A DNA stretch of 33,290 bases from a virus, in IMG/VR virus record IMGVR_UViG_3300027144_000012, positions 1 through 33,290 of that record; one strand, written 5' to 3'. The notes under the pieces were generated by a model, which worked only from the letters and a program-made list of their open reading frames with translations, did no database searches and was not told the origin of the DNA. How positions within the stretch are numbered: position 1 is the first letter of the stretch; each line of letters starts with the position of its first letter. Positions 8,477 to 30,275 of this stretch are shown here, in pieces. The position numbers and the translations under genes are program-made.

Positions 8477-8518
8477 CAAATATAACAGCATATTGTAGAC
8501 CTGCACATATAGTCTACA
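8477..8518 (-). promoter_or_regulatory. Promoter/operator for the reductase operon (TGTAGA element a)
   Basis: Minus-strand -7-type box TATATTTG (8484-8477) lies 44 bases before the reductase start. Upstream of it is a perfect inverted repeat, TGTAGAC (8494-8500) and GTCTACA (8512-8518), with an 11-base spacer. A further direct repeat, CTGCACATAT, occurs at 8501-8510 and 8537-8546. I see no good -33 TTG, which suggests activator dependence. Confidence 0.6.
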
Positions 8519-8597
8519 AAATAATTTCCAGACAATCTGCACATATTAATTAAGTTTTTTAAAGTGCGTGCTGTGTCACCATAATTCCGTATATTCT

Positions 8598-8634
8598 TGT
8601 AGAGGGTGGTGGAGAAGTACTTCTTATCTCTACA
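8598..8634 (+). promoter_or_regulatory. Inverted repeat before the holin start (TGTAGA element b)
   Basis: TGTAGAG (8598-8604) and CTCTACA (8628-8634) form perfect 7-base arms around a 23-base spacer that itself contains the palindrome GAAGTACTTC. The second arm ends two bases before the holin ATG, within CTCTACAATATG, a string shared with element d and nearly with a. A weak -7-like TATTCTTG overlaps the first arm. It could be an operator or an mRNA hairpin masking the holin start. Confidence 0.55.
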
Positions 8635-8636
8635 AT

Positions 8637-9110
8637 ATGAACTTTGCATTTCTTATGAAAACCAAGATCTGGTTATTGGCGTCACTGTCCGTTTTACTAC
8701 CGATCAAAGAACTGATGCTGACCATAGGTTTCCTAGTATTCGCTGACCTGGTGGTTGGTTTATGGAAAGCCATGAAGCTCAAACAACGCATTCGCTCAAG
8801 ACGAATGAGTGACACAGTCACCAAGCTTTTGCTGTATCAATTGGCAATCATCTCCTCTTTTCTCATTGAGAAGTATGTCATCACAGAAATGTTACCCATA
8901 GCTAAACTGGTAGGCACCGTGATTGCCATTATAGAATTCAAGAGCATCATTGAAAGCATTGAAGCGGTAACTAAGCAGGACATATGGAGTCGAATCAAGT
9001 CTTTGATTGGACGCAAGAGCGATGACCTTGTTGACGCTATGGGAGAAGACTCTGAGCCTAAGCCAAAAACCAAGGCCGCCAAAAAACAAGAGGCGACGCC
9101 TGATATCTAA
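8637..9110 (+). CDS. Holin (phage_holin_4 type)
   Basis: It forms inner-membrane lesions that time lysis and release or activate the endolysin. The frame extends up to 8568, but those codons overlap the inverted repeat and are not protein-like; the ATG at 8637 (MNFAFLMKTKIWLL) is chosen, giving 157 residues. Hydrophobic segments lie at about 11-45 (probably two helices), 63-78 and 86-100, followed by a conserved-looking FKSIIESIEAVT stretch and a charged, lysine-rich cytoplasmic tail. This matches the topology of PF05105-like holins. It is the first gene of a three-gene lysis operon and is immediately preceded by a regulatory inverted repeat. Confidence 0.8.
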   Translation: MNFAFLMKTKIWLLASLSVLLPIKELMLTIGFLVFADLVVGLWKAMKLKQRIRSRRMSDTVTKLLLYQLAIISSFLIEKYVITEMLPIAKLVGTVIAIIEFKSIIESIEAVTKQDIWSRIKSLIGRKSDDLVDAMGEDSEPKPKTKAAKKQEATPDI

Positions 9111-9115
9111 CCCCT

Positions 9116-9736
9116 ATGATAGACCGTAAAACCAGCTTCTACACCGGGATCATTCTGGTCCTGGTTTTTATTATTCTCTTACAACGTGCGTGCACGCCTA
9201 AGTGTGAGGAAGTGTCCACCCCTGAGCCAAGTGTCCATGTGGACACCTTGTACAAGGAAGTTGTTAAGACAGAGGTGCAACGCGTACCTGTATACAAAAC
9301 AGACATACAGTATGTCAAAGAACCGTGGATGGTTCCTGACACAAACTATGCAACACTTAAAAAACAGTTTGAACAGCTTGTCAATCGATACGCTGTCAAA
9401 AACATCTATCGTGACACCATATACATTGACTCTATAGGCACACTGGTATTGACAGATACCGTCCGCAAGAACATGCTTGCAGAACGTATGTATATCCATA
9501 ATTACAAGATCCCTACGATTACTATCACTAAGACTATTCCTCTACCACCTAAGCGACAGGTGTTTGTGGGTGGTGCCATTGGTGCCACCTATCCTGTTGC
9601 TATATCCAGTGTGCAGGCAGGGATGTTGTTCAAGAATAAAAAAGACCAGGTGTTTGGCTTAAGCGTAGGCCTTGACACAAGAGGTGTCATGACGTACTCG
9701 CTGTCATCTTACTGGAAGATATCCTTTAAACGCTAA
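9116..9736 (+). CDS. Membrane-anchored lysis-cassette protein, candidate spanin
   Basis: 206 residues between holin and endolysin. An N-terminal hydrophobic helix (about 8-23, FYTGIILVLVFIILLQ) follows a short basic start. Next come two cysteines (ACTPKC), a periplasm-like charged, extended region (VHVDTLYKEVVKTEVQRVPVY) and a C-terminal segment of alternating hydrophobics (RQVFVGGAIGATYPVAISSVQAG, VFGLSVGLDTRG, YSLSSYWKISF) that resembles short outer-membrane beta strands. Position and topology suggest a spanin-like function linking inner and outer membranes in the last step of lysis. I do not recognise a named spanin family, and the lipobox is not convincing. The spacer before the ATG (CCCCT) resembles that of the next gene (CCCT). 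Confidence 0.65.
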   Translation: MIDRKTSFYTGIILVLVFIILLQRACTPKCEEVSTPEPSVHVDTLYKEVVKTEVQRVPVYKTDIQYVKEPWMVPDTNYATLKKQFEQLVNRYAVKNIYRDTIYIDSIGTLVLTDTVRKNMLAERMYIHNYKIPTITITKTIPLPPKRQVFVGGAIGATYPVAISSVQAGMLFKNKKDQVFGLSVGLDTRGVMTYSLSSYWKISFKR

Positions 9737-9740
9737 CCCT

Positions 9741-10397
9741 ATGAACCTCAAACAAGTTGAATTCCCTGCCACGCAGTATTTGCAGGAGGAACATCCTAAG
9801 CGCCAGATCTATATTCACCACACGGCAGGCAATGCAGATGGTGAAGCGGTGTTTAAAAGCTGGGCTAACAATCCTGAACGTATCGCAACCTGCGTTACCA
9901 TCACTGGTAAACTCAAGGGTAAACCTGAACTGGACGGTCAAATCGTGCAAGGCTTTCCTTCTAAGTTCTGGGCGTACCACCTGGGCGTCAAGGAACAAGT
10001 ATTCAAAGACTACAAGGTGCCGTATAAAGCATTGGACAAAATCAGCATTGGCATAGAGATTTGCAACTGGGGACAGCTTACACTTAAGAAAGGTAAATTT
10101 TATAACTATGTAGGTAAGGAAGTTCCTGCGGATGAGGTATGTGAATTAGCTACTCCATACAAAGGAAATAAGTACTTTCACAACTACACGGATAAACAGA
10201 TTGAATCTGTAAAGCAACTGTTGTTGTTGTGGAAAAACAAATACGGCATACCTCTGACTTATGATGAGGACATATGGGACGTAACACCCCGCGCTCTCAA
10301 AGGAGAGGCAGGAGTGTTTACCCACAACTCTGTCAGAAAAGATAAGATAGACATCTATCCTCATCCTAAGATGGTAGAGATGCTCAAAAGCATTTAA
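9741..10397 (+). CDS. N-acetylmuramoyl-L-alanine amidase endolysin (Amidase_2)
   Basis: It cleaves the bond between N-acetylmuramic acid and the stem peptide of peptidoglycan. The 218-residue protein shows the T7-lysozyme/PGRP-like fold: YIHHTAG at about 24-30 with zinc-ligand H26 or H27, WAYHLG with H80, SIGIEICN with E106, and a late GVFTHNSVRKDKIDIYP block with H195, K202 and D204 in the positions of the remaining zinc ligands and catalytic lysine. There is no signal peptide and no separate cell-wall-binding domain, so it should depend on the holin. It is the last gene of the lysis operon and is followed by a bidirectional terminator. Confidence 0.92.
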   Translation: MNLKQVEFPATQYLQEEHPKRQIYIHHTAGNADGEAVFKSWANNPERIATCVTITGKLKGKPELDGQIVQGFPSKFWAYHLGVKEQVFKDYKVPYKALDKISIGIEICNWGQLTLKKGKFYNYVGKEVPADEVCELATPYKGNKYFHNYTDKQIESVKQLLLLWKNKYGIPLTYDEDIWDVTPRALKGEAGVFTHNSVRKDKIDIYPHPKMVEMLKSI

Positions 10398-10425
10398 AAA
10401 AAGACTACTTCAGTAGTTTATTTAT
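10396..10425. terminator. Bidirectional terminator between lysis and replication operons
   Basis: ACTAC (10404-10408) pairs with GTAGT (10413-10417) around TTCA, extended by G-T and A-T pairs. On the + strand TTTATTTATA follows; on the minus strand CTTTTTTT follows (the A run after the amidase stop). It therefore fits both converging operons. Confidence 0.75.
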
Positions 10426-10441
10426 AGTTGGTTTCTTCCGC

Positions 10442-10466
10442 AAGGCCCTCACAACGGTGGGGGCTT
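10442..10466. terminator. GC-rich hairpin downstream of the leftward replication operon
   Basis: AAGGCCCTCAC (10442-10452) pairs with GTGGGGGCTT (10457-10466) around AACG, with one bulged G and one G-T pair. It lies 6 bases beyond the last leftward gene's stop, before the U-tract hairpin at 10404-10417. No U run follows it directly, so it may be a helper stem. Confidence 0.5.
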
Positions 10467-10471
10467 TGTGT

Positions 10472-10798
10472 TCATAGACGTGTCAGTTCCTCGTGCTTCA
10501 GAATCATGACGTTGTTGTCAACAGGATCTATGTGCTGTATAAAGGAAAGCACCAGTTGAAGTTCACGCATCTGGCTGTAATCCAGGTAGTTCTTCTTAGG
10601 CTTTTCCTCCCATTTGATCTTGAACCCGTTACCGTCATTGGTCACTGTCAGAATGGTCAGACCTCTGACATGTTCGCTCCAGTCGTTGCTGTTGCTGTAA
10701 CTTAGGCGACATACGTCCAAGCCTGTCTGGTCATCAATAAGTTCGTCTACGTAATACTTGATGCTGTCATCAGTGGTATCTAAAATGTAATGTCTCAT
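10472..10798 (-). CDS. Hypothetical protein, 108 aa
   Basis: The ATG overlaps the upstream kinase stop as ATGA, so the two are coupled. The protein is acidic, with an N-terminal MRHYILDTTDDSIKYYVDELID and a YSQMRELQLVLSFIQHIDP helix. It has no motif or membrane segment I can name. It is the last gene of the long leftward replication operon and abuts the terminator hairpins. Confidence 0.75.
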   Translation of the reverse strand: MRHYILDTTDDSIKYYVDELIDDQTGLDVCRLSYSNSNDWSEHVRGLTILTVTNDGNGFKIKWEEKPKKNYLDYSQMRELQLVLSFIQHIDPVDNNVMILKHEELTRL

Positions 10799-11586
10799 TG
10801 TTCAATGATGTTAAGTTCTGTCGTTAGTTTTCTGACCTTGTTGATCAGGTCGTTCAGGTCACCGTCGTTGACGATTACGTGTGTGAATGGATAATCATCA
10901 AGAGCTGTCTCAGAAGGATGATCATCTTGTTTACGTTCAGGACGATCTATGCGCAATAGTAATCCGTTATGATTTTTGATTGCTTCAGCTTCGTTGGGAA
11001 AACGCACGTCTGTAACGATCCAATAGCTGGGGTTATACTGTGACAGTTTAGGAAACCTGTAGTCTGCCATCAGTGCATTAACCCACACGTTCTCGTGCAA
11101 TCCTTTGCGCATGGCTTCTGTACCCAGTTCCTGCAACAGTTGGCGCACTGTCATCCGCTGCATACCAACCACATACTCGATATTCAATGTACCAAAAGAT
11201 TCTTTCATGATAGCAACAGCTGCTTCTGCTTCTTCTTTTTTCACAAAGCGACCGGACTGTTGTATGAGTTGACCGTTCATGATAAGAGAAACGGTGTAGT
11301 AGTTCCATTCAGGGCCCAGGTATTCTTTCTTGAACTCCTGGTCTTCAAACTTTTCTACAGGAATGCCAGTCAATAAAGAAGCAGTTTGCTTAAGCTTACC
11401 TGCAAACTTTTTGATTTTGTAATGAGAGCCACGTGCTACATAGCCGTTGTGCTCAAGGTCAGCGATAATATCACCGTTGGTCATACTGTATATCTCAGGT
11501 TCTAAACTGAGGTACTGTATGATGCGGGCAACGGTATCCTTACCACTGCCAATTTTGCCAGAGATGCCAATGAGGTTGGTGTTCAT
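10795..11586 (-). CDS. Deoxynucleoside monophosphate kinase (P-loop)
   Basis: It phosphorylates dNMPs to dNDPs and so recycles nucleotides for phage DNA synthesis. The 263-residue protein begins with MNTNLIGISGKIGSGKDTVA, a Walker A loop (residues 10-18, GKIGSGKDT) of the dNMP/adenylate-kinase type. A YWIVTDVRFPNEAEAI segment, typical of phage dNMP kinases (the T4 gp1 class has the comparable DVR-F-E signature), and an RIDRPER stretch near the C-terminus support this. It overlaps both neighbours by four bases, consistent with coupled translation. Substrate range cannot be read from the sequence. Confidence 0.85.
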   Translation of the reverse strand: MNTNLIGISGKIGSGKDTVARIIQYLSLEPEIYSMTNGDIIADLEHNGYVARGSHYKIKKFAGKLKQTASLLTGIPVEKFEDQEFKKEYLGPEWNYYTVSLIMNGQLIQQSGRFVKKEEAEAAVAIMKESFGTLNIEYVVGMQRMTVRQLLQELGTEAMRKGLHENVWVNALMADYRFPKLSQYNPSYWIVTDVRFPNEAEAIKNHNGLLLRIDRPERKQDDHPSETALDDYPFTHVIVNDGDLNDLINKVRKLTTELNIIEQ

Positions 11587-11741
11587 TTGTTGTAAGTCTT
11601 AATGCGTTTAACCAGGCTGTATTTGTCAATCGTAATGCGATACTTCAGCCTGAGGTATCGCATAAGTAAGTACACTTTGTTGGTGCGGGAGGGTCGCTCT
11701 GCTACCTTGCAGAACTCCTCATAGATTACGTCTTCTTTCAT
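11583..11741 (-). CDS. Small basic protein, 52 aa
   Basis: The frame is open to 11783, but that extension runs through a strong inverted repeat. The ATG at 11741 (MKEDVIYEEFCKVAERPSRT) lies directly behind it and gives 52 residues. The C-terminal half is rich in Lys, Arg and Tyr (YLLMRYLRLKYRITIDKYS). It ends with a four-base overlap with the kinase start. No family is recognised. Its start position makes it the gene most likely to be controlled by the hairpin at 11755-11800. Confidence 0.6.
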   Translation of the reverse strand: MKEDVIYEEFCKVAERPSRTNKVYLLMRYLRLKYRITIDKYSLVKRIKTYNK

Positions 11742-11754
11742 AGGTAGTAGATAA

Positions 11755-11800: not shown

Positions 11801-11809
11801 GATTTGTAT

Positions 11810-12619: not shown

Positions 12620-12623
12620 AATG

Positions 12624-16618: not shown

Positions 16619-17071
16619 TTAATTGCAGTTTTCCATATCCCGGTTGAAGTAACGGCCCAGGATGTTACCGTTGTAGCTTTCTTTTTTCAAGACGTCAAGC
16701 TTGACCTGCCAACTGAGCTCGCAGTAGGACAGATATTTTTTGGAGCAACACAGCTCCAGGATTTCACGCTTGAAATACTTATTGCCCAGCTTACTGATGT
16801 CTTCACTGAGATCCTTGGAGGACCCGTGATACAGCAACCAGTCTGATTCTTTGATCTCTATGCGGAACTTTTTGCGGGTTCCGGTGAGACGCTTCTCAGT
16901 GGCAGATATCTTTTTCTTGCGTGAATGGTATAGGCTCTTCTGGCCTATGTAGAACTTACCTGTTTTCAGGTTAGTAATTTTGTAGACAAAGCCAACAGTG
17001 GCTTCATGATTAGGCAGTTGGTGCACCTTGGTAATCTCATCACCAGAGGGTACATAAATCCAGTTGTTCAT
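16619..17071 (-). CDS. GIY-YIG endonuclease
   Basis: 150 residues. The catalytic N-terminal module reads GFVYKITNLKTGKFYIGQKS (FVY at 28-30, YIG at 41-43), followed by a basic stretch with Arg and Lys, an SDWLLYHGSSKDL segment and a C-terminal SYCELSWQVKLDVL...YNGNILG that supplies the expected Glu and Asn. This matches small GIY-YIG nucleases of phages, including putative homing or Seg-like enzymes. It sits between the primase and exonuclease genes and has its own promoter-like region, which fits a mobile insertion. There is no sign that it is spliced or fused. Confidence 0.8.
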   Translation of the reverse strand: MNNWIYVPSGDEITKVHQLPNHEATVGFVYKITNLKTGKFYIGQKSLYHSRKKKISATEKRLTGTRKKFRIEIKESDWLLYHGSSKDLSEDISKLGNKYFKREILELCCSKKYLSYCELSWQVKLDVLKKESYNGNILGRYFNRDMENCN

Positions 17072-17087: not shown

Positions 17088-17128
17088 CAAATATAATCAA
17101 CCTCTACAATGTGTGTTCCTGGTCTACA
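17088..17128 (-). promoter_or_regulatory. Promoter/operator upstream of the GIY-YIG gene (TGTAGA element c)
   Basis: Minus-strand box TATATTTG (17095-17088) lies 16 bases before the GIY-YIG start. Upstream are two direct repeats on that strand, TGTAGAGG (17108-17101) and TGTAGACC (17128-17121), 20 bp apart. One overlaps the primase stop codon and the other the last primase codons, so the element constrains that C-terminus. Confidence 0.55.
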
Positions 17129-19748: not shown

Positions 19749-20383
19749 TGTTTACCTTTATGAATAAGTTGATTCAGCCATTTCTTGTTGGACAAAGGAA
19801 CGTTCTGCATGATGCAGTACAGGTCGCGGATGGTCATCTTGGTGTAGTGATCATCATCCATCTCGCTGTACGCTTCTGTGTACTTTTCTTCGTCAAGCAG
19901 GTCCTCAATCTTGGCTGAAAAAAGATCGGGCGTCGCTGCTTCTTTACTTGTCATCTCAGGCACGAGTGCCTTTACGGTTGTCTTGTTCACTTGCTTAAGG
20001 TGGCTAAGCTTTACCACATAGGTAGGTGTGGTCAGCTTGGCACCGGATGCAGTGGTAGTCACCTCTTTGTAGTCAGGGCTTGTTCTCCAGTGCGGGTCAT
20101 AGGGCAGATGATAAAGCACCCTGTAGCCTTCATGGTAGTGTCCTTGCTCCCAATTGAACAACTCACAGTATACACCGTCTTCATTGTTGAGTTCATTGGG
20201 GAAGAAGCGAATGCATTCCTCACGCGATGAACCTCCGCTGAACTCTTTGCCCATATAGCAAAGCTTGGCGGAAAAGAATGGGTTGGTGTTGGGGTGTGTG
20301 TCAAACACCGTTTGCCAAAACGGGCGCCACTCTGCGGTGATTTCCGTGATGTGTTTTTTGGATTCAGTACTTGTGTAACTCAT
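19730..20383 (-). CDS. Hypothetical protein, 217 aa
   Basis: It lies between helicase and Sak4 genes, starting 12 bases past the helicase stop. Its last six codons overlap the Sak4 start. The N-terminal half has many aromatic residues (WRPFWQTVFDTHP, FNWEQGHYHEGYRVLYHLPYDPHW); the C-terminal half is helical with acidic runs. There is no nucleotide-binding motif. Given its place, a loader or accessory of helicase or recombinase is possible, but this is only context. Confidence 0.75.
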   Translation of the reverse strand: MSYTSTESKKHITEITAEWRPFWQTVFDTHPNTNPFFSAKLCYMGKEFSGGSSREECIRFFPNELNNEDGVYCELFNWEQGHYHEGYRVLYHLPYDPHWRTSPDYKEVTTTASGAKLTTPTYVVKLSHLKQVNKTTVKALVPEMTSKEAATPDLFSAKIEDLLDEEKYTEAYSEMDDDHYTKMTIRDLYCIMQNVPLSNKKWLNQLIHKGKQWQNQK

Positions 20384-20395
20384 ACGTGTAACTGT

Positions 20396-21406
20396 TTACT
20401 TTCTAGGTTGTTGATGCGGTGTGGCGGTCTCTGTGACGGTCATCAGTGCATACTCTGCACGATACCATTGGATACCGGTGTCACCAAAACGATTTTTGAG
20501 TACGTGCATGGCCAGCAGAAACTTATCATCAGGAGTGATGATGTACTTCAGCGGACCATAGATACTCAGATTGTACTTGGCAGGACGGTTCCATGCCACC
20601 ATGACGTCTGCACATTGCAGCAGGTAGTCAGAGCCATACACGTCCGCCTCTGTAGGGTAGTTGCTCAACGAGCCAGGTCGCTGGCGTTCAGGGTCATCGA
20701 TCTCACGGTTAAGCTGGGTGAGGATCAGAAAGGTAACAGGAAGAGCGTTCTTCATTTCTGTCAGCATGGTTGCCAGGTTCTGCAATGTTTGCTGGCGACT
20801 GGTCTCTGTTCCGCTTTGTTTAACCAGGAGCGTATGGTCCAGTGTAACCACAAAAGGTTTTTTTACGTCTTTGTAAAAATCAATAAGGGCTTTGCGCATC
20901 TCGCTTACCGTAAGGGCCGTGTCAATGACATAGTCCTGGCGGTGTCCCTGCGTAGCTACATAGTCAGTGAGTTTTTTCATATCACTTGCAGTAAGCGGTG
21001 GCATGTCGTCATCTCCTGAACTTTGCAGATAACGGATGTTCAAACGGTTGGCACTGGACAACTCACGCAATGCAATGTTGCGACCCAGCATCTCAAACTG
21101 AAAGTGCAGCACTGCAAAGTCCTGGTCTTTGTTGAGGCGTTGCAACTCACGGGTAAGTGAGGATGCAATCAATGTCTTACCTACGCCCGGTCTGGCTGCC
21201 AGTACGTAAAGCGATTGCCACTCAATACCGTTGAGTCCGATCTTGTTGAACCCTTCCCACTGAGTCCTTAAGGATTTAATCTCTCCCTTTGCGCGGGAGG
21301 ATATGTAGTCAATACCCTGTTGCATGATTTCCGTGTACTTCTTCCAGGGTTTTGAAGAGACGGATTTAGTGGTGCTGGCGGTTCCAGCAGGCGTTGGTGA
21401 ATACAT
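20396..21406 (-). CDS. DnaB-like replicative helicase (RecA domain only)
   Basis: Unwinds the replication fork. The 336-residue protein has the RecA core of DnaB: Walker A AARPGVGKT (70-78), the catalytic Glu in HFQFEM (E105), Walker B VVTLDH (D190), LTQLNR (Q231) with the arginine-rich stretch after it, and ADVYGSDYLLQCADVMVAW near the end. The N-terminal DnaB domain is absent; only about 60 residues precede the core. It is the second gene after the UDG on this strand but has its own promoter-like region at 21444-21471. Confidence 0.88.
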   Translation of the reverse strand: MYSPTPAGTASTTKSVSSKPWKKYTEIMQQGIDYISSRAKGEIKSLRTQWEGFNKIGLNGIEWQSLYVLAARPGVGKTLIASSLTRELQRLNKDQDFAVLHFQFEMLGRNIALRELSSANRLNIRYLQSSGDDDMPPLTASDMKKLTDYVATQGHRQDYVIDTALTVSEMRKALIDFYKDVKKPFVVTLDHTLLVKQSGTETSRQQTLQNLATMLTEMKNALPVTFLILTQLNREIDDPERQRPGSLSNYPTEADVYGSDYLLQCADVMVAWNRPAKYNLSIYGPLKYIITPDDKFLLAMHVLKNRFGDTGIQWYRAEYALMTVTETATPHQQPRK

Positions 21407-21443
21407 TAAATATGCGGAAAAGAGTTTGCTAAGATATGCATAT

Positions 21444-21471
21444 TGTAGAGCTATTGCAACTTACCTCTACA
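21444..21471 (-). promoter_or_regulatory. Promoter/operator upstream of the helicase (TGTAGA element d)
   Basis: TGTAGAG (21444-21450) and CTCTACA (21465-21471) form perfect 7-base arms with a 14-base spacer. On the minus strand a TTG within the spacer is followed, about 20 bases on, by TATCTTAG, a variant of the TAnnTTTG -7 box, before the helicase start. CTCTACAATATG is shared with element b. Confidence 0.6.
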
Positions 21472-21498: not shown

Positions 21499-22215
21499 TT
21501 ACCACACAATGGGATCATGAATCAGCGCTTCGTTCACCTTGTTGAATACGTCGTTGCAGTTCCATAGCTGTTGTTTTTGGTATGCAGCAGACGCAGGGTG
21601 TGAACAGGTAAGCACCGTATGATGATCATCCACCATATCTGAGAGTGCCTGGGCTTGTTTACCCATGAATACCCATACAAGCGAGCGGTCGTTCTTGCTA
21701 AGCATGTCTATGAGATATGCAATAAAAGGTTGCCATATGTCAAAGTGTTTACCTATCTTGCCTACCTCGGTTGTCAGAGCCGTGTTAAGCATAAGTACTC
21801 CCTGGTTTGACCAGCGTGTCAGATCAGGATCAACTTCTTTTATGTCTAGTTTACCGCTGTACACTGTTTCATTTACAGCTTTTAGAATGTGGCGTAGTGA
21901 TGCTTCAGGTTTTTTAGTGTTGCCACATGAAAAGGCAATGCCATCCGCAACTCCCAACTGGGGGTAAGGGTCCTGGCCCACTACAACCACACGCAACTGA
22001 TCGTATGGACACTCTTGAAATGCCCTGAACACCTGTTTGAGCGGTGGTGTGAACCGCTGTCCGTCATTGACCATGGTGTTTAAGGTCATCAGGATATTTT
22101 TGAAATCCTCAGAAACCAGGAAACCCTTAAGCACATTGTGCCAGCCGGAGTCTTTAAGCATACTGGAGAGCTTTTTTACAACCTCTTCATGATTTACTGT
22201 AACATTTTGTGTCAT
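21499..22215 (-). CDS. ung: Uracil-DNA glycosylase, family 1
   Basis: Excises uracil from DNA. 238 residues, normal family length. Visible motifs are the water-activating loop GQDPYP (80-85, D82), the FSCGN segment (95-99), LMLNTAL (141-147) and the minor-groove loop HPASAAY (206-212), a variant of HPSPLS with the catalytic His kept. With the phage dUTPase it would keep uracil out of phage DNA. It is the first gene of the leftward replication block, directly behind the divergent promoter region at 22216-22276. Confidence 0.93.
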   Translation of the reverse strand: MTQNVTVNHEEVVKKLSSMLKDSGWHNVLKGFLVSEDFKNILMTLNTMVNDGQRFTPPLKQVFRAFQECPYDQLRVVVVGQDPYPQLGVADGIAFSCGNTKKPEASLRHILKAVNETVYSGKLDIKEVDPDLTRWSNQGVLMLNTALTTEVGKIGKHFDIWQPFIAYLIDMLSKNDRSLVWVFMGKQAQALSDMVDDHHTVLTCSHPASAAYQKQQLWNCNDVFNKVNEALIHDPIVW

Positions 22216-22216: not shown

Positions 22217-22255
22217 TTTGTAGAGTCAGATTAATTTACGTTTACATTTGTAGAA
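22217..22255 (+). promoter_or_regulatory. Promoter with paired TGTAGA motifs (element e)
   Basis: TTTG (22217-22220), a 22-base spacer and TACATTTG (22243-22250) match the Bacteroidota -33/-7 promoter pattern and point at the rightward gene at 22277. Each box runs into TAGA, giving direct repeats TTTGTAGAG and TTTGTAGAA. The same 61-base gap must also hold the leftward UDG promoter. Confidence 0.7.
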
Positions 22256-22276: not shown

Positions 22277-22588
22277 ATGGAAACTCCAAAATCAGAACAA
22301 CGCTTTGACGTGATTACGCAGGAAGCTGTAGTCAGCGTCAAGATGAGCTCAGGTTACTATCGTCGTATTCAGGAGGCAACTGCCCATTTTGTGAAAGGCA
22401 AGAACTCCGAACAGATCAACGGTGCTCATGATCAGATCCGTAACCAAACGATTACAGAAGACTGGGTGAAGCACTATGAAACCATGCTCATTCTTTGCAA
22501 AGAGTTTGAAGCCATGGCAAAAGAACAGGGATTCATCAAGCAAGTCACTGCAGAAGAACTGCGAGACATGCTTGACTCTGAGCTTTAA
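22277..22588 (+). CDS. Hypothetical protein, 103 aa, isolated rightward gene
   Basis: The only rightward gene between 10.4 kb and the right edge. It is helical and charged (YYRRIQEATAHFVKGKN, WVKHYETMLILCKEFEAMAKEQG), with no membrane segment or named motif. It has its own good Bacteroidota-type promoter just upstream. Its stop codon overlaps that of the convergent leftward gene through a shared TTAA, with no terminator between. Its orientation and separate promoter suggest a distinct expression time. Confidence 0.75.
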   Translation: METPKSEQRFDVITQEAVVSVKMSSGYYRRIQEATAHFVKGKNSEQINGAHDQIRNQTITEDWVKHYETMLILCKEFEAMAKEQGFIKQVTAEELRDMLDSEL

Positions 22589-24348: not shown

Positions 24349-24350
24349 AG

Positions 24351-24803: not shown

Positions 24804-24828
24804 CTAACCGTATATGCAATACAGTTAG
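24804..24828 (-). terminator. Hairpin at the stop codon of the acidic 94-aa gene
   Basis: A 10-bp stem, CTAACCGTAT (24804-24813) with ATACAGTTAG (24819-24828), has one G-T pair and loop ATGCA. The right arm overlaps the TAA of the 94-aa gene. No U tract follows, so it may stabilise the mRNA end rather than terminate. Confidence 0.4.
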
Positions 24829-25109
24829 GTTTCCAGGTTGTCAAAGTCTATGAAGTCATCATCATAAAGCTTTTCTTCCAGGTCAACTTCCGTAAGATCA
24901 GAAAGAGGGACTTCTTTGTAATCGTCAACGTCCTCTACATCCTCACTCAGGTGATGAGGACCGTAGCGCAAAACACTCAGGGCAAACGGGTCGTTGACCT
25001 CATCCCCAGCATTGAAGGCTACCATTCCTTTCAGTTCTTCATCTGTCATCCGCAAGAACTGCTCTATGGTCAATTCCACACACTTACCGTTGGGTAGCTG
25101 ATATAACAT
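24825..25109 (-). CDS. Acidic hypothetical protein, 94 aa
   Basis: The N-terminal half (MLYQLPNGKCVELTIEQFLRMTDEELKGMVAFNAG) looks folded; the C-terminal half is strongly acidic (SEDVEDVDDYKEV, YDDDFIDFDN). This start-rich conserved layout recurs, from memory, in Bacteroidota phages without assigned function. It is the first gene behind promoter element f and so probably an early product. Acidic small phage proteins can be DNA mimics, but there is no direct evidence for that. Confidence 0.75.
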   Translation of the reverse strand: MLYQLPNGKCVELTIEQFLRMTDEELKGMVAFNAGDEVNDPFALSVLRYGPHHLSEDVEDVDDYKEVPLSDLTEVDLEEKLYDDDFIDFDNLET

Positions 25110-25149: not shown

Positions 25150-25187
25150 TGTAGAGGTAGGTCTACAAATATATGAACACTTCTACA
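25150..25187 (-). promoter_or_regulatory. Promoter/operator for the 94-aa gene and downstream (TGTAGA element f)
   Basis: On the minus strand TATATTTG (25173-25166) runs into TAGACC. TGTAGA (25150-25155) and TCTACA (25162-25167) form a short-spaced inverted repeat over the expected start point, and a third TCTACA lies at 25182-25187. This is the densest copy of the element family. Confidence 0.6.
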
Positions 25188-25258: not shown

Positions 25259-25279
25259 AATTTATATGCAGAGAAAACT

Positions 25280-25618
25280 TTAGAAGCTTACGGTAAGGGT
25301 GTCAGGACCGACAGACACATGCTTGGCGGAGTTGGCTACGTAGATAGAGATACCGTTTATGATCACGGTAAATCCGGGGGCGTTCTTGGCAGGAGTAATA
25401 GCATGAAGTGTTTCTACCGCGGGACCATCTTTGTCAGAAGGTTTTTTACCCCTGATGTCAGGAATACTTACACCGGCATCTTTTAGCTGGCGCTTGTAAT
25501 TGTGTACACTGCTTACTGCAATGCCAAAATGTTTACTAATCTCTTCTGGTGTGATGCCTTGTGTAACCATGTCCTTTAGAACTTTGAGTTGAACATCACT
25601 GATTTTCTTCTTTGCCAT
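25280..25618 (-). CDS. Helix-turn-helix regulator overlapping the integrase gene
   Basis: The open frame reaches 25639, but the ATG at 25618 (MAKKKISDVQLKVL) is the better start, giving 112 residues. It overlaps the integrase end by 23 bases. Residues 10-47 form a resolvase/Hin-like HTH (VLKDMVTQGITPEEISKHFGIAVSSVHNYKRQLKDAG). A basic linker (RGKKPSDKDG) and a C-terminal beta region (PGFTVIINGISIYV, VSVGPDTLTVSF) follow. It is probably a DNA-binding regulator or directionality factor for the integrase, and is also the best candidate in this window for binding the repeated TGTAGA operators. Both roles are inferred from position and HTH. Confidence 0.75.
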   Translation of the reverse strand: MAKKKISDVQLKVLKDMVTQGITPEEISKHFGIAVSSVHNYKRQLKDAGVSIPDIRGKKPSDKDGPAVETLHAITPAKNAPGFTVIINGISIYVANSAKHVSVGPDTLTVSF

Positions 25619-26771
25619 TAACTGGAATTTGTGTGTCAAAAAATTGTAGCTGTGCAGGTAAATTGTACAGCTTGTTTACTTTCTTACTTGCCTTTTTGCA
25701 CGTCAAACGTATGTCATTTTCATCCAAACGTGCATAGTGTTCCGTTTGTTTGATTGTCGCATGACCCAACAACTTTTGAACTGTTTGCAATGATACACCA
25801 TTTTTTAAGTTTACGGTTGTTGCGTATGTGTGTCGTGCTACGTGCGTGGTGAGTTTCTTAGATATGCAACAAATGTCTGCGATTTCCTTAAGATACGCAT
25901 TCATTTTCTGATTTGAAACTATTGGCAATTTGTAGTGGTATTTTTCCAATATGTTGCGTGCAGTTTGATACATAAATGCAAGTGTTGGTTCTCCACTTTT
26001 TTGCCTGGTAGTTTTGATTATCATCTGATCTATCCACTCTCTCCTTAGATTGCGCATGTCAGCGTAAGCCAGGCCGGTAAAGCATTGGAACAAGAACAAG
26101 TCCTTGACATGCTCCAGTCTTGGCATCGCCATCGTTTTAGCAATGAGCATCTTAAGCTCCGTTTCTGTGAGGTACACAGGTGATACTTTCTTAAGGGTAA
26201 GGAGCTTACCCACAAACGGGTCCTCGGTGATGTAGCGCTTTACTTTATAGGCATAGGTAGTCACAGCCTTTAGCCTGTAAAGGTTTTTCATAGCGGTGTT
26301 ATGCCCGTTGAACTGCCTGAGAAAGTCATCAAACTCTTCGACAAAGGAAGCGGTAACCAGCAACAGGTTGATGTCGCTTTTGCCACGGCTGTTGAGAAAG
26401 TCTTTGAGGTGTTCGTATACACACATGAACTTCTCCAGCGTGGCTTTACCCAGGTCATTCTTCTCTACCTTGGGTTTGATCTTCTTGTCCATGAATTCCT
26501 CATAGAGCTTCAGCAGGTAGTGCTCCTCCGTTTTGTTCAGGTACAGATGCTTAATAACCTGGGGGTCTGTGGTAAGGTTCCTGATCAGGCGTAGGTTAAA
26601 CAGCTCCATCAGATCCTGCATGACCTGAGCTTTGTACGTACCCACCTGGTTGTCCAGAGGGGTTATAACATAGTTCAGTTTAAACTCCGCATTCTTACCT
26701 TTGTAAGTGAGCCTGCAGTACAGGTAACGCTGTTCCCTTCTGCCAGGTCTTGTAAAGAAGTATACTATCAT
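25596..26771 (-). CDS. int: Tyrosine recombinase (integrase), IntDOT-like
   Basis: 391 residues. An N-terminal arm-binding domain and SAM-like core-binding domain (about 85-190) precede the catalytic domain. In FTGLAYADMRNL the usual first catalytic Arg position is Ala (A235), as known for Bacteroidota conjugative-transposon integrases such as IntDOT, where Arg I is also missing. The other residues are present: K258 (RQKSGEP), H310-x-x-R313 (HVARHTYA), H337 (LLGHATI) and the nucleophile Y346 (TEHYARL). The ATG lies in one arm of a hairpin. The attP-like site is directly upstream of the start, the usual phage order. The HTH gene follows with overlap. Confidence 0.92.
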   Translation of the reverse strand: MIVYFFTRPGRREQRYLYCRLTYKGKNAEFKLNYVITPLDNQVGTYKAQVMQDLMELFNLRLIRNLTTDPQVIKHLYLNKTEEHYLLKLYEEFMDKKIKPKVEKNDLGKATLEKFMCVYEHLKDFLNSRGKSDINLLLVTASFVEEFDDFLRQFNGHNTAMKNLYRLKAVTTYAYKVKRYITEDPFVGKLLTLKKVSPVYLTETELKMLIAKTMAMPRLEHVKDLFLFQCFTGLAYADMRNLRREWIDQMIIKTTRQKSGEPTLAFMYQTARNILEKYHYKLPIVSNQKMNAYLKEIADICCISKKLTTHVARHTYATTVNLKNGVSLQTVQKLLGHATIKQTEHYARLDENDIRLTCKKASKKVNKLYNLPAQLQFFDTQIPVNGKEENQ

Positions 26772-26796: not shown

Positions 26797-26839
26797 CGTG
26801 GACAGGGCTTTTGAACAGTTTTCAGATTTTCAAACCATA

Positions 26840-27014
26840 CACGTAACTCCACAAAAGAATCACTGTTTATGACCTGTTTTACACTGACAAAACCATTGAT
26901 TATCAACGAGTTAGGTGCAACCAGCGGAGAGAGAGGGATTCGAACCCCCGTTAAAACCCGCTACCACACTGCGTTTCAAAAGCTTTTGGTCAATCATCCA
27001 CGTATCTCCACAAA
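26840..27014. other. attP-like attachment site with tRNA-Ser 3' end
   Basis: Bases 26924-26949 (minus strand) read as the T-arm and 3' acceptor strand of a tRNA-Ser: GGGGGTTCGAATCCC then TCTCTCTCCGC. No matching 5' half (GGAGAGA) or anticodon arm is present, so it is a fragment and not a gene. It is flanked by direct repeats CACGTAACTCCACAAA (26840-26855) and CACGTATCTCCACAAA (26999-27014), one mismatch, which look like integrase arm-type sites. The palindrome AAAGTTTAAACTTT (27023-27036) and a partial second copy at 27038-27047 lie beside it. Everything is adjacent to the integrase start. Confidence 0.72.
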
Positions 27015-27042
27015 TGTATACAAAAGTTTAAACTTTCAAAGT

Positions 27043-27411
27043 TTAAAATTGTGCACCTCTGGTATACTCTTCTACAAATTCCTGGAATGTGCCCTGGTAT
27101 CTGAACGACTTGTCTTTGGCTGAAGTAATGGTGACTTGTTGCTTGACGGTGTCTACTGTAATCAGCAGGTTTATGTCAACGTACAACTGTGTACCAATAC
27201 CGTAACCTCTGTCTTGTTCCCAGCACTCCAGTGGTACCATATGACAGAATACAATCTTTGCAAGATAGTCTGCATCATCCCAGCGCTGACCGGCAGCAAG
27301 GGCTGAGTATACGTCATTGGTCAGCCGGGCGGCATGATCATGAGTATACAAATAGATGCGACCGTAGGGGCTAATCACCTCTACTTGGCCGCTATTCATG
27401 TTGATTTCCAT
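27043..27411 (-). CDS. Hypothetical protein, 122 aa
   Basis: A beta-rich N-terminus (GQVEVISPYGRIYLYTHDHA), a helical centre (LTNDVYSALAAGQRWDDADYLAKIVFCHMV) and a C-terminal beta hairpin (TVDTVKQQVTITSAKDKSFRYQGTFQEF). No family or membrane segment is seen. Its 3' end touches the palindromic repeats beside the attachment site. It lies between the dUTPase and the integration module, separated from the dUTPase by a structured 139-base gap. Confidence 0.72.
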   Translation of the reverse strand: MEINMNSGQVEVISPYGRIYLYTHDHAARLTNDVYSALAAGQRWDDADYLAKIVFCHMVPLECWEQDRGYGIGTQLYVDINLLITVDTVKQQVTITSAKDKSFRYQGTFQEFVEEYTRGAQF

Positions 27412-27436
27412 GGCGGATTAAATTTAAGTGTTGCTT

Positions 27437-27515
27437 CAAGAACCAGTACATGTACCAGAATCTTGTAGCGGTAGCGCTCCCTAAGGGGCTGTCTCTTGGC
27501 ATAGAGACAAACCCC
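27437..27515. promoter_or_regulatory. Structured intergenic region (two hairpins)
   Basis: In the 139-base gap after the dUTPase, GGGGCTGTCTCT (27485-27496) pairs with AGAGACAAACCCC (27503-27515), about 12 bp with one mismatch or wobble and one bulge. A perfect 10-base palindrome, GTACATGTAC (27446-27455), is flanked by CAAGA / TCTTG. There is no U tract. It may be a terminator, an RNA element or an operator for the 122-aa gene. Confidence 0.45.
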
Positions 27516-27550
27516 GAAGCGTGTTGTGTTAAAACCTATAGTTCCTTTCA

Positions 27551-28051
27551 TCACTTTCCTGTTGAGCCAAATCCACCTTCACCACGGTCTGAACTACCCA
27601 GTTCTTCAGTCTCTACCAACTCTACGTGTGGGTAAGGGATGATCATCAACTGGCCGATCTTGTCACCCACTTTGTATACGTTGGCGTAAAACCTGCGGTC
27701 ACCTTCTTTGTAGTACAGTTGGTCATCTACCCAGGAATCTAAAGCGTCAAACGTCTGCTCCAGTTTGAAGCGAAGCTTGATCTCTCCTCTGTAACCAGAG
27801 TCAATTACACCTACTGCATTTGCCAGGAACAAGTCTTTCTTACTGACAGATGATCTGGGAAAGATCAGGCCTACATGGCCCTCAGGAATTTCAATAGCGA
27901 GACCTGTACCATACTCCAGGTAGTCTCCGTTCTCATCAGTGCCTGTCTCAGTGCGTTGAGAGATGGCGGTCAGGTCCATACCTGCATCACCCGGCTTAGC
28001 GTAGCTGGGGATTACTGCATCAATGTGCAGCTTCTTGATCTGTATCTTCAT
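27551..28051 (-). CDS. dut: dUTP diphosphatase (trimeric dUTPase)
   Basis: Hydrolyses dUTP to dUMP and pyrophosphate, lowering uracil incorporation and feeding dTMP synthesis. 166 residues with all five motifs in order: DAGMDL (22-27), PRSSVS (65-70), GVIDSGYRGE (81-90, catalytic D84), KIGQLMIIP and the C-terminal RGEGGFGSTG (156-165), whose Phe stacks on the uracil. A short insertion (LDSWVDDQLYYKEGDRRFYANVY) lies between motifs 3 and 4. The start overlaps the end of the upstream gene by 32 bases. It works together with the UDG and class II reductase encoded elsewhere in the window. Confidence 0.95.
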   Translation of the reverse strand: MKIQIKKLHIDAVIPSYAKPGDAGMDLTAISQRTETGTDENGDYLEYGTGLAIEIPEGHVGLIFPRSSVSKKDLFLANAVGVIDSGYRGEIKLRFKLEQTFDALDSWVDDQLYYKEGDRRFYANVYKVGDKIGQLMIIPYPHVELVETEELGSSDRGEGGFGSTGK

Positions 28052-28373
28052 TTTGTTTATAGATTAGTTTTGCAAACGTTTTCTTGGTGGCAAACTTCTT
28101 GAACGCCTCTGATGGATAAAGCTCAGAATAGCTTCCGTCTGGTGAGCTCCATAGGTCTTCAAGCTCAGCTTTGATTTCCTCACCACGGTATTCCATGTTA
28201 TGTGTAGCTCTCAAATCATCTGCGTGAAAGCGCACAACTTCTTGGTCAAGGGGAGTAATGGGGTATGAATGCACCCCACTTAGTTCACTGTGTCCATCTT
28301 TGCGTGTGAAGCGGGTGATAAAGACCCATTCATTGTCAGTAGTCTTGGTAAGTTTTCCTTTCACAAATCTCAT
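28020..28373 (-). CDS. Hypothetical protein, 117 aa
   Basis: A beta-rich first half (FVKGKLTKTTDNEWVFITRFTRKDG) and a helical acidic second half (EEIKAELEDLWSSPDGSYSELYPSEAFKKFATKK). It overlaps its upstream neighbour by four bases and the dUTPase by 32. No recognised family. Position in the same transcript as the dUTPase gives no specific functional clue. Confidence 0.7.
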   Translation of the reverse strand: MRFVKGKLTKTTDNEWVFITRFTRKDGHSELSGVHSYPITPLDQEVVRFHADDLRATHNMEYRGEEIKAELEDLWSSPDGSYSELYPSEAFKKFATKKTFAKLIYKQNEDTDQEAAH

Positions 28374-29011
28374 AGTGACTTTTGTATTTGTTCGTAAACC
28401 TTTGCTGTCATTTCCATCATGAATTCCTCTGACCAGGTATGAGTAGCGTCTGGCCGTTTGACTGATATAACATGATCATGGTCAGTAGTTGCAGAATCCT
28501 TGGTCATGAATTCTCCAGGGACGATCTTGTACCCACGGCTTTCCCTGTAGGTAGAGCTGTCTGCTATGCGAATGTTTTGTACAAAGCGAGATTGTTTTTT
28601 GGTAGGAATAGCGCTGTATATAAAACTACCAATACTAACGTGGTGGGAGTTCATCCAGTCCTGATATCCTTTTATACCCAGGGTTTCCATAGCGATTGCT
28701 GTCAGTTCTCCCCACTGCTCAGCCGTAAAGAACTGCATGTAATCAACACCCTTTGGTATGTCAAACATAACTTCTTCTTTAACCGGAAGTGTTATAGGCA
28801 TATCAGACTTAACTCTTCTGTTAATTTCAATCCAGTAGTCAGCCCCCTCAGGAGTGTCCATCCAGGGAAACGCGCCTCCGACAACCACGTCTTCTGTAGA
28901 TTGTTTTACAAACCGTTCATAGCTCAACGGACAATCGCGAGCAATAAGGTTTTTCTTGTAGTTTTCCAGCTCTTCCGCTGTGAGATAACTCTCAAATTTT
29001 TCTGGTTCCAT
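28370..29011 (-). CDS. Hypothetical protein, 213 aa
   Basis: The N-terminal segment LTAEELENYKKNLIARDCPLSYERFV and the following VVVGGAFPWMDTPEGADYW are distinctive and, from memory, recur in Bacteroidota phage proteins of unknown role. A centre with FFTAEQWGELTAIAMETLGI and a C-terminal helix follow. No catalytic motif is evident. It overlaps the zinc protein upstream by 20 bases and the next gene by four. Confidence 0.72.
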   Translation of the reverse strand: MEPEKFESYLTAEELENYKKNLIARDCPLSYERFVKQSTEDVVVGGAFPWMDTPEGADYWIEINRRVKSDMPITLPVKEEVMFDIPKGVDYMQFFTAEQWGELTAIAMETLGIKGYQDWMNSHHVSIGSFIYSAIPTKKQSRFVQNIRIADSSTYRESRGYKIVPGEFMTKDSATTDHDHVISVKRPDATHTWSEEFMMEMTAKVYEQIQKSL

Positions 29012-29237
29012 AGAGGATTCTCTTGATTATGTCCAACTTAGATTTAAACTCCACCCGCTCAAATTTCTGAGTAGATAGGTTGAGCAACCACGTGTAGCCA
29101 TCGCGTGACCAGAACTTGTAGTTGCATATGTGACAAGACTTGCACCGACCCTTGTCTTCAGGGCGCTGGTACGCTCTTCTGTTCAGACTGAACATAAAGA
29201 GGGGGAGCTTGCGCTCACAGTAAAAACACTTCTTCAT
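28992..29237 (-). CDS. Small zinc-finger protein, 81 aa
   Basis: Five cysteines form CFYC (C4, C7) and CKSCHIC (C32, C35, C38), the arrangement of a treble-clef or HNH-like zinc site, but the His and Asn of an active HNH nuclease are not clear. The C-terminal half is basic (FKSKLDIIKRILYGTRKI). The start overlaps the stop of the upstream 31-aa membrane peptide as ATGA. A nucleic-acid-binding adaptor is plausible. Confidence 0.72.
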   Translation of the reverse strand: MKKCFYCERKLPLFMFSLNRRAYQRPEDKGRCKSCHICNYKFWSRDGYTWLLNLSTQKFERVEFKSKLDIIKRILYGTRKI

Positions 29238-29329
29238 CTGTTCTTGCTTTTACGTTTAAGTACAAAGAATGCAATGGTCAGTGCTGTAGAAAGCACAACC
29301 ATCACTAGACTTCCTGTGAAGTTTTCCAT
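29234..29329 (-). CDS. 31-aa single-span membrane peptide
   Basis: The ATG at 29329 opens a 31-codon frame: MENFTGSLVM, a hydrophobic stretch to FFVL (about 7-24), then a basic KRKSKNR tail. That gives one transmembrane helix with the positive end predicted cytoplasmic. Its stop overlaps the next ATG (ATGA), typical of a translated gene. It is the first ORF after the tRNA block on this strand. Its function is unknown; small phage membrane peptides can act in exclusion or lysis control. Confidence 0.6.
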   Translation of the reverse strand: MENFTGSLVMVVLSTALTIAFFVLKRKSKNR

Positions 29330-29344
29330 AAGGATTAGGGTTTG

Positions 29345-29426
29345 TGACCATGACAGGAGTCGAACCTGCACATCGTGAGATACACGCTTCTGAGACGTGT
29401 GTGTCTACCAATTCCACCACATGGCC
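29345..29426 (-). tRNA. tRNA-Leu (CAG)
   Basis: Minus strand. The acceptor stem GGCCATG pairs with CATGGTC (one G-T). The D arm contains GGAATTGGTAGAC. The anticodon stem CACGT/GCGTG encloses loop CTCAGAA, anticodon CAG, reading CTG codons. A class II variable arm precedes T-arm GCAGGTTCGACTCCTGT. Discriminator is A; no CCA is encoded. Length is 82 bases. Confidence 0.92.
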
Positions 29427-29628
29427 AAATGATACCCTGTTTTATCCAGCTACAGGTATCGCGGTTGTCCCTCATAGTCAGCAGTCTGTTAGACGCAGAG
29501 GTTAGGAATAGACGGTCTGTGTAGGACGTCACCCCAAATAGACCCTTGGTCTATCAGCAATTCCATACGGGCATCACCCCGTTTCTCATCGTGTAGGACA
29601 CACTATCTGCTGTTTGTGGCAGAACGTG

Positions 29629-29718
29629 TAGCACAGACAGGAATCGAACCTGTACCTCTGCCAACTTGCGTTGTTTAGGTTTATACCTTACAGTGCAAAC
29701 CAATTTTGCCACTGTGCC
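29629..29718 (-). tRNA. tRNA-like gene, class II size, isotype unclear (Tyr GTA possible)
   Basis: Minus strand, 90 bases. Acceptor GGCACAG pairs with CTGTGCT (one G-T), discriminator A. D stem GCAAA/TTTGC has GG in the loop. T arm ACAGG-TTCGATT-CCTGT is perfect, and a long variable region contains CAAC-GCAA-GTTG. The anticodon arm does not fold canonically: loop CTGTAAG would give GTA (Tyr), but its flanking bases do not pair well. It may be a degenerate or unusually processed tRNA. Confidence 0.6.
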
Positions 29719-29838
29719 ATGTTGCAATACAGAACCCAGTCTCTTGGTCACTACGTCTATGCGCACTAACGTAGATGTTCCTCACCTGGGGTTGTCAGTA
29801 GCTACTCTGACAGACACTCTGTATTGCGGGTAAGCCTG

Positions 29839-29991
29839 TACATGGATAGCAACGTGAGATAGACGCCTTTTAGTTCTCCCAATGGGCGCGTTTCTCTCTG
29901 GCTGTGATCTCTATAATTTAGCGTTCACGTGGAGCCGACTGGCTAATCACACCAGCTTTGGTATAGCTCTACCATTGTTGTTATCCATGTA
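29839..29991 (-). ncRNA. Candidate structured RNA in the tRNA block
   Basis: It falls within the 405-base ORF-free stretch 29719-30123. TACATGGATAGCAAC (29839-29853) and GTTGTTATCCATGTA (29977-29991) form 15-base arms with one mismatch, closing about 123 bases. Inside, on the minus strand, are hairpins TGGTA-n6-TACCA, CTGG-n9-CCAG and GCGCC-n17-GGCGT. A D-loop-like AATGGTAGAGC follows the 5' arm, but no T arm can be found, so it is not an ordinary tRNA. The rest of the stretch holds another stem, GCACATGTAC with GTACATAGGTGC (30017-30044), and no ORF I would support. Confidence 0.4.
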
Positions 29992-30123
29992 TAAACCTGA
30001 GGAGGTGCATGCAATCGCACATGTACATACTGGTACATAGGTGCTGTCTAGAATCTAACCGTCTCGTTCTGCATGTGGTCTTTTATGCTCACTCCTTAAT
30101 TTTGTTGTCAAAGAACGTTGTTG

Positions 30124-30194
30124 CACGCCCACCTGGATTCGAACCAGGACCAACGGTTTTGGAGACCGTCATGCTACCGTTGCACTATGGACGC
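30124..30194 (-). tRNA. tRNA-Trp (CCA)
   Basis: Minus strand, 71 bases. Acceptor GCGTCCA pairs with TGGGCGT (two G-T pairs), discriminator G. D arm is GTGC-AACGGTA-GCAT. The anticodon stem ACGGT/ACCGT encloses CTCCAAA, anticodon CCA. T arm CCTGG-TTCGAAT-CCAGG is perfect. It is the first RNA gene after promoter element g. Confidence 0.95.
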
Positions 30195-30238
30195 GGGCGT
30201 AGCGCTACACCTGTTACACAAAATACAGTGTTCATAGA

Positions 30239-30275
30239 GGTCTACAATATTACTACAAGATCATGCACGTCTACA
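30239..30275 (-). promoter_or_regulatory. Promoter/operator upstream of the tRNA block (TGTAGA element g)
   Basis: On the minus strand three copies follow each other: TTTTGTAGAC (ending 30269), TTGTAGTA (around 30257) and TATTGTAGACC (30246-30239). TAATATTG (30252-30245) is a one-mismatch -7 box, and a TTTTG lies 21 bases upstream of it. It would drive the tRNA-Trp to tRNA-Leu block and the genes beyond. Confidence 0.6.

Follow-up and report, generated by a model that had tools for sequence, protein, structure and literature searches.

TGTAGA sites overlying host-type promoters of crAss-like phages: candidate operators of a phage repressor

A short asymmetric sequence built on the hexamer TGTAGA recurs in pairs and triplets at gene starts in IMG/VR virus record IMGVR_UViG_3300027144_000012 (33,290 nucleotides, analyzed whole and called the window here), and in this phage and a number of its relatives it lies over most promoters of the host type. 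With moderate confidence, we interpret the sites as a network of repressor operators extending over the whole genome in temperate crAss-like phages; the repressor is probably HTH-A, a helix-turn-helix (HTH) protein encoded next to a tyrosine integrase.

RESULTS

Paired TGTAGA sites at gene boundaries of the window

The window contains 32 exact TGTAGA/TCTACA hexamers, compared with 20.5 expected, and 9 adjacent pairs separated by no more than 45 bp, compared with 0.53 ± 0.73 (maximum of 3) in 300 dinucleotide shuffles, which upholds the claim of a preliminary description of this DNA that the pairing exceeds chance. Ranked by close pairs, TGTAGA is the top hexamer in the window, followed by the overlapping word CTACAA with 8. 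That description listed seven sites, all of which exist and each of which lies at a gene start or ahead of the tRNA block, but two of them begin at 17103 and 22219 rather than at 17101 and 22217, and the site placed at 30239 to 30275 has two exact copies, not three. One of the 9 pairs (16948/16981) was outside that list and is coding, lying inside the GIY-YIG gene at 16619 to 17071.

Promoters of the Bacteroidota sigma factor have a -7 element, TAnnTTTG, and a -33 element, TTTG. Strict -7 boxes accompany four of the seven sites and a -7-like sequence a fifth, in line with the earlier statement that most sites sit beside or over such a box. The pair at 8494 to 8518 (hexamers starting at 8494 and 8513, inverted, 19 apart) is in the ribonucleotide reductase promoter, with the -7 box TATATTTG at 8477 to 8484 on the minus strand, and its arrangement is identical in three relatives (G002, G003, and L010). 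The pair at 8598 to 8634 (starts at 8598 and 8629, inverted, 31 apart) has no strict -7 box and stands ahead of the likely start codon of a holin-like gene, at 8637; G002 and G003 retain it with an altered linker. Direct copies 20 apart at 17103 to 17128 on the minus strand (starts at 17103 and 17123) occupy the promoter of the GIY-YIG gene, with TATATTTG at 17088 to 17095, and the inverted pair at 21444 to 21471 (starts at 21444 and 21466, 22 apart) is upstream of a DnaB-like helicase gene at 20396 to 21406, with the merely -7-like TATCTTAG at 21429 to 21436. The latter pair is also present in G002, G003, and L009, and sites precede the same helicase gene in G004, G005, L018, L027, and L051. 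The sequence CTCTACAATATG, which the preliminary description gave as exact in two sites and nearly so in a third, is found exactly at 8598 to 8634 and, on the other strand, at 21444 to 21471; at 8494, it is without its first base.

Between the divergent genes at 21499 to 22215 (UDG-like) and 22277 to 22588, direct plus-strand copies 30 apart (22219 to 22254, starts at 22219 and 22249) overlap the -7 box TACATTTG at 22243 to 22250. A triplet at 25150 to 25187 (starts at 25150, 25162, and 25182) covers the minus-strand box TATATTTG at 25166 to 25173, ahead of a gene at 24825 to 25109 and directly downstream of the HTH gene. Two exact copies (starts at 30241 and 30270) with a degenerate TGTAGT between them, at 30241 to 30275 on the minus strand, precede the tRNA block without a strict -7 box, and a similar array is found at positions 43710 to 43744 of G002. 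The block itself (29344 to 30194) comprises tRNA-Leu (CAG), a tRNA-Tyr whose anticodon, ATA, is unusual, and tRNA-Trp.

An uncultured crAss-like phage

The window DNA polymerase matches 948 phage records, every one at less than 60% identity. A 109-kb IMG/VR record, G001, has a DNA polymerase 100% identical and an HTH protein 99% identical to those of the window and carries the window's sites in the same order (window position x corresponds to G001 position 36267 - x); the polymerase of G002 (IMGVR_UViG_3300016467_000502) is 94% identical to that of the window phage. G001 encodes a protein of 4,198 amino acids in which the DFDxD motif of giant virion RNA polymerases appears as GSDFDVD and which locally resembles the polymerase regions of phi14:2 and crAss001. 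Because of this protein, the large terminase subunit and major head protein families (PHROG) of G001, and the resemblance of its terminase, portal, polymerase, primase, and glycosylase to those of phi14:2, crAss001, or both (tblastn), the window phage is an uncultured member or close ally of the Crassvirales.

Sites overlie promoters of the host type

Drawn from 7 genomes, 91 nonredundant intergenic sites (103 before redundancy was removed) define an asymmetric unit of about 12 bp, WTTTGTAGANSTW. A promoter carries one to three units, on both strands and anywhere in the examined span from -45 to +20, and most host-type phage promoters are so marked, in the replication and structural halves of the genome alike. 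Spacings between direct repeats are often near 20 and 30 bp. Three direct TGTAGA copies 20 to 21 bp apart also precede an operon of G002 (30487 to 36127) encoding an HTH_36 winged-helix protein, a MoxR-like AAA ATPase, and a VWA protein.

Records were divided into motif-bearing and motif-free by the motif itself. Among intergenic TAnnTTTG boxes upstream of genes, 32 of 38 from eight motif-bearing records have a site between -45 and +20, whereas nine motif-free records yield 4 of 76. With orthologues removed, the figures are 21 of 26 (the same eight motif-bearing records) against 2 of 48 (six motif-free records; Fisher test, 9e-12), the fused form TAnnTTTGTAGA being present at 11 of the 26 boxes and 1 of the 48. 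Summed over all records, 72 of 83 intergenic boxes (17 motif-bearing records) and 4 of 82 (10 motif-free records) carry a site, a comparison that is partly circular in view of the sorting and that omits G042 (0 of 2 boxes), which has no similarity to the family.

At several of the same gene boundaries, motif-free relatives have TATATTTG promoters without the motif, and a divergent promoter near the late operon reads TTTGTAAAAG in motif-free relatives but TTTGTAGAAG or TTTGTAGAGG in motif-bearing ones. Because the motif-free relatives keep such promoters without it, the TGTAGA element is an overlay on host-type (Bacteroidota) promoters and not a promoter class: the same -7 boxes underlie the sites, whereas the Bacteroidota consensus is not known to include such an overlay. 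The copies are also too variable in orientation and position for a core promoter element. The preliminary description had left the choice between a multi-protomer regulator and a phage-modified promoter class; the latter is not supported, and enrichment, conservation, overlap with -7 boxes, and linkage to the HTH gene favor a regulator and its operators.

Enrichment and distribution among relatives

With genes called by a simple longest-open-reading-frame method and the coding rate taken as the background for expected intergenic counts, the 119 hexamers of G001 include 19 between genes, where 4.8 are expected, and form 19 close pairs, where 5.1 are expected. Intergenic hexamers are also enriched in G002 to G007, G013, G019, and G020 (Poisson P ≤ 0.02), among which G004, G005, G019, and G020 are close relatives, and are not enriched in G008 to G012 and G015 to G018 (Poisson P > 0.4). 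The split by close pairs is less clean than the intergenic one, G020 having no pair excess despite its intergenic enrichment. The pairs are conserved in related phages, where the preliminary description had proposed to look for them: G001 and G002 have sites at the same gene boundaries despite altered linkers, and the arrangement at the helicase, glycosylase, reductase, and 11158-type genes reaches some more distant relatives. In phi14:2 and crAss001, the motif is not enriched, and 0 of 7 and 2 of 10 boxes, respectively, carry a site.

Viral contigs were scanned with a composite pattern (TGTAGA, 7 to 9 bases, TATATTTGTAGA), with its first word reversed as the control, yielding 100 stretches against 18. 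Among the 80 stretches listed and examined, 43 lie in predicted genes, mostly within one conserved peptide, and were set aside. The other 37 are noncoding (5 of 18 in the control), and 31 of them are on contigs with protein similarity to this phage family, a similarity not found for the remaining six (L213, L227, L233, L245, L257, and L264); the control also draws 3 of its 5 noncoding matches from the family. The coding matches within L192 to L271 are a trap for pattern scans, in that many small viral contigs share the stretch TGTAGA...TATATTTGTAGA, corresponding approximately to DVERVSIFVDR. Eight further records (G035 to G042) were chosen on the strength of one or more composite sites.

A DNA polymerase tree of 88 sequences, reduced to 45 rows by removal of near copies, has 13 rows with the motif, 30 without it, and 2 that are unclear, the rows of 9 to 20 kb being weakly labeled. 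Supported branches force at least five motif changes on this tree; i.e., the motif comes and goes within the phage family. An initially apparent dependence of the motif on G+C content is broken by two motif-bearing records, G039 and G041, with G+C contents of 0.36 and 0.35.

A lysogeny-type module beside the candidate repressor

HTH-A, the candidate repressor, is a protein of 112 amino acids encoded on the minus strand at 25280 to 25618 (PHROG 323, D5-like, E = 1.7e-5). Overlapping its gene and upstream of it, on the same strand, is the gene of a tyrosine integrase of 391 amino acids at 25596 to 26771 (phrog_1 integrase, E = 2.1e-33; PF00589 in G001). Farther upstream, at 26925 to 26951 (minus strand), is a tRNA-Ser-like 3'-end fragment, a putative attP core, which matches Rfam family RF04351 (a plastid element spanning the end of trnS) at E = 0.003, under the gathering score; the same fragment is present in G005.

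The HTH-A family profile detects members in 6 of 28 records (G001, G005, G035, G036, G037, and G040), and the PF00589 integrase occurs in exactly the same six, adjoining HTH-A each time and representing three kinds by eye. Both are missing from all 10 motif-free records; when only records of 80 kb or more are counted, 5 of 9 with the motif and 0 of 8 without it encode HTH-A. The sites track a lysogeny-type module (tyrosine integrase, tRNA-like attP, and HTH-A), imperfectly. Beside the integrase, Rfam detects tRNA-like pieces in five of the six records (E = 1e-4 to 0.44, all under gathering scores), those in G035, G036, and G040 being tRNA-like halves; the piece in G037 was seen by eye (Rfam E = 3.7). 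G002 has neither integrase nor HTH-A and, by eye, is like G001 as far as the margin of the tRNA-like fragment; G004 is without the cassette that is present in its close relative G005. G002 and G004 could be deletion derivatives that kept their operators, or the cassette could have been gained in G001 and G005.

The structure predicted for the G040 member of HTH-A (mean pLDDT, 70) has three helices with an N-terminal HTH and a small C-terminal beta domain. HTH-A is weakly similar to invertase-type and D5-like HTHs; a fold search gave weak HTH matches, none at E = 0.001, and a search against solved structures gave nothing useful. Its predicted recognition helix is nearly invariant in six diverged members, as expected if the site is also invariant. 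CI-type HTH_3 repressors were found above the cutoff in none of 20 records.

Two further features adjoin the module. A paralogue of HTH-A, HTH-B, is encoded in G035 (108016 to 108363), G036 (6679 to 7035), G038 (44867 to 45217), and G040 (38757 to 39074), next to HTH-A in three of these and alone in G038. By eye, the regions next to the integrases and tRNA pieces of G001, G035, and G040 share an inverted repeat, TTGATAATCAA, and those of G005 and G037 have similar sequences; the repeat is a possible arm site for the integrase or an excisionase.

Loci selected on HTH-A alone

An HTH-A alignment scan of viral contigs, a selection free of the motif-based sorting that affects the box comparison, returned 27 loci, of which 26 were examined and L086, from the window's own species, was omitted. 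Six of the 26 are records used above and four are on contigs of the pattern scan; some are near copies. An integrase lies within 462 bp of HTH-A in 24 of the 26 (one of the other two starts at a contig end), and a simple word search, without a control, finds a tRNA word nearby in 17. Together, the 26 loci have 183 intergenic TGTAGA sites, against 58.1 expected, and 38 of their 54 -7 boxes carry a site; for the 16 loci on contigs new to the analysis, there are 110 sites against 38.1 expected, with a site at 22 of 30 boxes. The HTH gene that the preliminary description named as a candidate binder is therefore linked to the sites across the family.

DISCUSSION

A proposed repressor operator network

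The mixed orientation, variable number, and position over the -7 box of the TGTAGA copies are consistent with repressor operators. Each copy of the unit would be a half-operator for one DNA-binding protein acting on most host-type (Bacteroidota sigma) promoters in the window phage and several sister lineages; where copies cover the -7 box, the spacer, or the start region, that protein would block host RNA polymerase. Since the sites track the lysogeny-type module, the likeliest binder is a repressor encoded by the phage itself, probably HTH-A. The combination of repressor-like sites with an integrase, a tRNA-like fragment, and HTH-A suggests that the repressor may silence the genome in a dormant, integrated state, much as the dispersed operators of L5 and P1 do. 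Repression, binding by HTH-A, and lysogeny are what we infer from these arrangements of genes and sites. A broader proposal, on which we find the case evenly balanced, is that many environmental crAss-like phages are temperate, integrating at tRNA genes through a swappable integrase/attP/HTH cassette and keeping nearly all host-type promoters silent with one repressor and its dispersed TGTAGA operators; virulent forms (for example, G002 and G004) would then arise when the cassette is lost, and these would retain the operators and be exposed to the immunity of resident prophages.

Several observations weigh against this interpretation. The most serious objection to HTH-A as the binder is its absence from four site-bearing records, G002, G004, G039, and G041, which also lack the integrase (G004 and G041 are short records); G038 has HTH-B only. 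HTH-A could instead be an excisionase. Sites mark 5 of the 10 promoters of the module and 28 of 35 others (P = 0.10), from which no clear autoregulation emerges. Eight of the 26 HTH-A loci are individually not significant at 0.05 or only at the limit. Close pairs are in excess in the motif-free G018, which has 17 where 8.5 are expected, and the motif-based sorting of records makes the box comparison partly circular. Helical phasing was not significant in 14 direct intergenic pairs (P of about 0.2), and 20 coding pairs were equally phased (P = 0.03 to 0.2). Two DNA polymerase scans of 84,980 species genomes revealed no prophage and identified no host, the one contig found being in a Sphingomonadaceae bin.

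The absence of HTH-A from G002 and G004 also suits a regulator encoded by the host and present in some hosts only, to which phage promoters have adapted, with the integrase module being separate and loosely correlated. Such a regulator is a possible, if doubtful, alternative. Comparison of gene lists found no phage gene common to all motif-bearing records yet missing from the others: the one that best tracks the motif is in 7 of 9 motif-bearing records and 1 of 8 motif-free ones, and none fits fully. The repeated motif changes on the DNA polymerase tree are in its favor, as is the fact that two phage proteins of the winged-helix type, wHTH131 and HTH_36, were rejected as binders, their putative recognition helices (by eye) being nearly identical in motif-bearing records and in several motif-free ones such as G008, G010, G011, and G016. 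Other phages of the same hosts might be expected to use a host regulator, yet 31 of the 37 noncoding composite matches belong to this one family, and loci chosen on HTH-A alone carry the motif.

The other explanations fare worse. A phage activator or RNA polymerase appropriator like MotA, switching on middle or late host-type promoters, is unlikely: TTG occupies the -33 region at just 8 of 26 boxes in motif-bearing records, so help with initiation is conceivable, but motif-free relatives are no better off, at 14 of 48 (orthologues removed). In T4 MotA-type systems, the box precedes the -10/-7 element at a set spacing and in a single orientation, whereas the sites here range, within the examined span, from -44 to +20 in both orientations, often over the -7 box, an arrangement unsuited to an activator making fixed contacts, and mark replication and structural promoters alike. 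That TGTAGA is instead the recognition element of early promoters for a virion RNA polymerase is very improbable, even though the phage encodes the giant DFDxD protein. Orientation to the gene is mixed, the UDG-like gene having no sense copy in the 110 bases upstream; late operons also bear sites; the DFDxD protein is also encoded by the motif-free G009, G012, G015, and G018; and there is no enrichment in phi14:2 or crAss001, the records of which name the polymerase. We rejected a virion-polymerase promoter on the mixed orientation and this lack of enrichment. Chance, or a compositional artifact of intergenic DNA, can hardly account for the sites: single hexamers are common in coding DNA, but the shuffles, the motif-free relatives, and orthologous conservation refute this explanation as far as computation can.

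Relation to known systems

Operators of the P1 C1 repressor are dispersed and asymmetric, occur singly or in pairs and in either orientation, and serve a prophage that is a plasmid. The TGTAGA sites share this dispersed, asymmetric, single or paired, bidirectional layout and differ in sequence, host, and repressor, as well as in their association with an integrase and a tRNA-like attP in place of a plasmid prophage. Excerpts of two papers describe the dispersed operators or stoperators and monomeric immunity repressor of cluster A mycobacteriophages of the L5 type (PMC9283540, PMC5712189). As far as those excerpts go, the likeness consists in an HTH repressor (here a candidate) and in a short asymmetric site that recurs many times, dispersed over short intergenic regions and a promoter; in L5, however, the sites follow transcription, whereas here orientations are mixed and pairs or triplets lie over the -7 box. 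Other differences are in the host polymerase, the phage family, and the repressor. One of the excerpts adds that the lytic phage D29 is a deletion derivative of a temperate parent and keeps its sites (PMC5712189), and G002 and G004 are comparable in keeping sites without HTH-A.

Lysogeny has been discounted for crAss-like phages in several sources: passages of a review hold that they seem strictly lytic, with a virion polymerase reading early genes and host polymerase probably reading late ones (PMC10136315); the abstract of the crAss001 paper calls these phages incapable of lysogeny (PMC8375218); and the crAss002 paper, in an excerpt, reports lysogeny genes in neither phage (PMC8042965). The main text of a survey of crAss-like gut genomes does not use the words integrase, lysogen, temperate, or promoter (PMC7886860). 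An excerpt of another paper mentions integrases for a subset of crAss-like phages (PMC9980608), and repressor and antirepressor genes and partial prophages are described, again in an excerpt, for the epsilon group (PMC11054128). Those phages are likewise Crassvirales with signs of temperate life; they differ in having BRO_N/KilAC antirepressors, and the excerpt describes neither the integrase module nor an operator network (PMC11054128). Among titles and abstract openings in the literature searched, none describes TGTAGA-type operators in crAss-like phages.

If the operator interpretation is right, phages thought to be strictly killing could lie dormant, and a genome-wide operator set tied to an integration module would open lysogeny in the Crassvirales to experiment, with specific DNA sites and one named protein as the candidate repressor. 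A further question would then be how an injected virion polymerase and a repressor that acts on host-polymerase promoters can coexist.

Additional genes and sequence words

Other intergenic 7-mers are also among the most enriched, namely, AACCAAC and GGTTAAA-type words (in G004, G005, G012, and others), and CTATGAA is enriched between genes in G001 and G002, probably at gene starts. G002 encodes, at 20120 to 20569 on the minus strand, a Tad2-like protein (PF11195, E = 5e-24), a homologue of a Thoeris antidefense protein, with relatives in G004, G005, G006, G007, G012, and G019. At 36171 to 37037, the same genome has a gene for a radical-SAM protein resembling spore photoproduct lyase (PF20903, E = 4e-21), homologues of which are found in G004, G005, G013, G015, and G018, the G005 copy starting with an apparent intein end.

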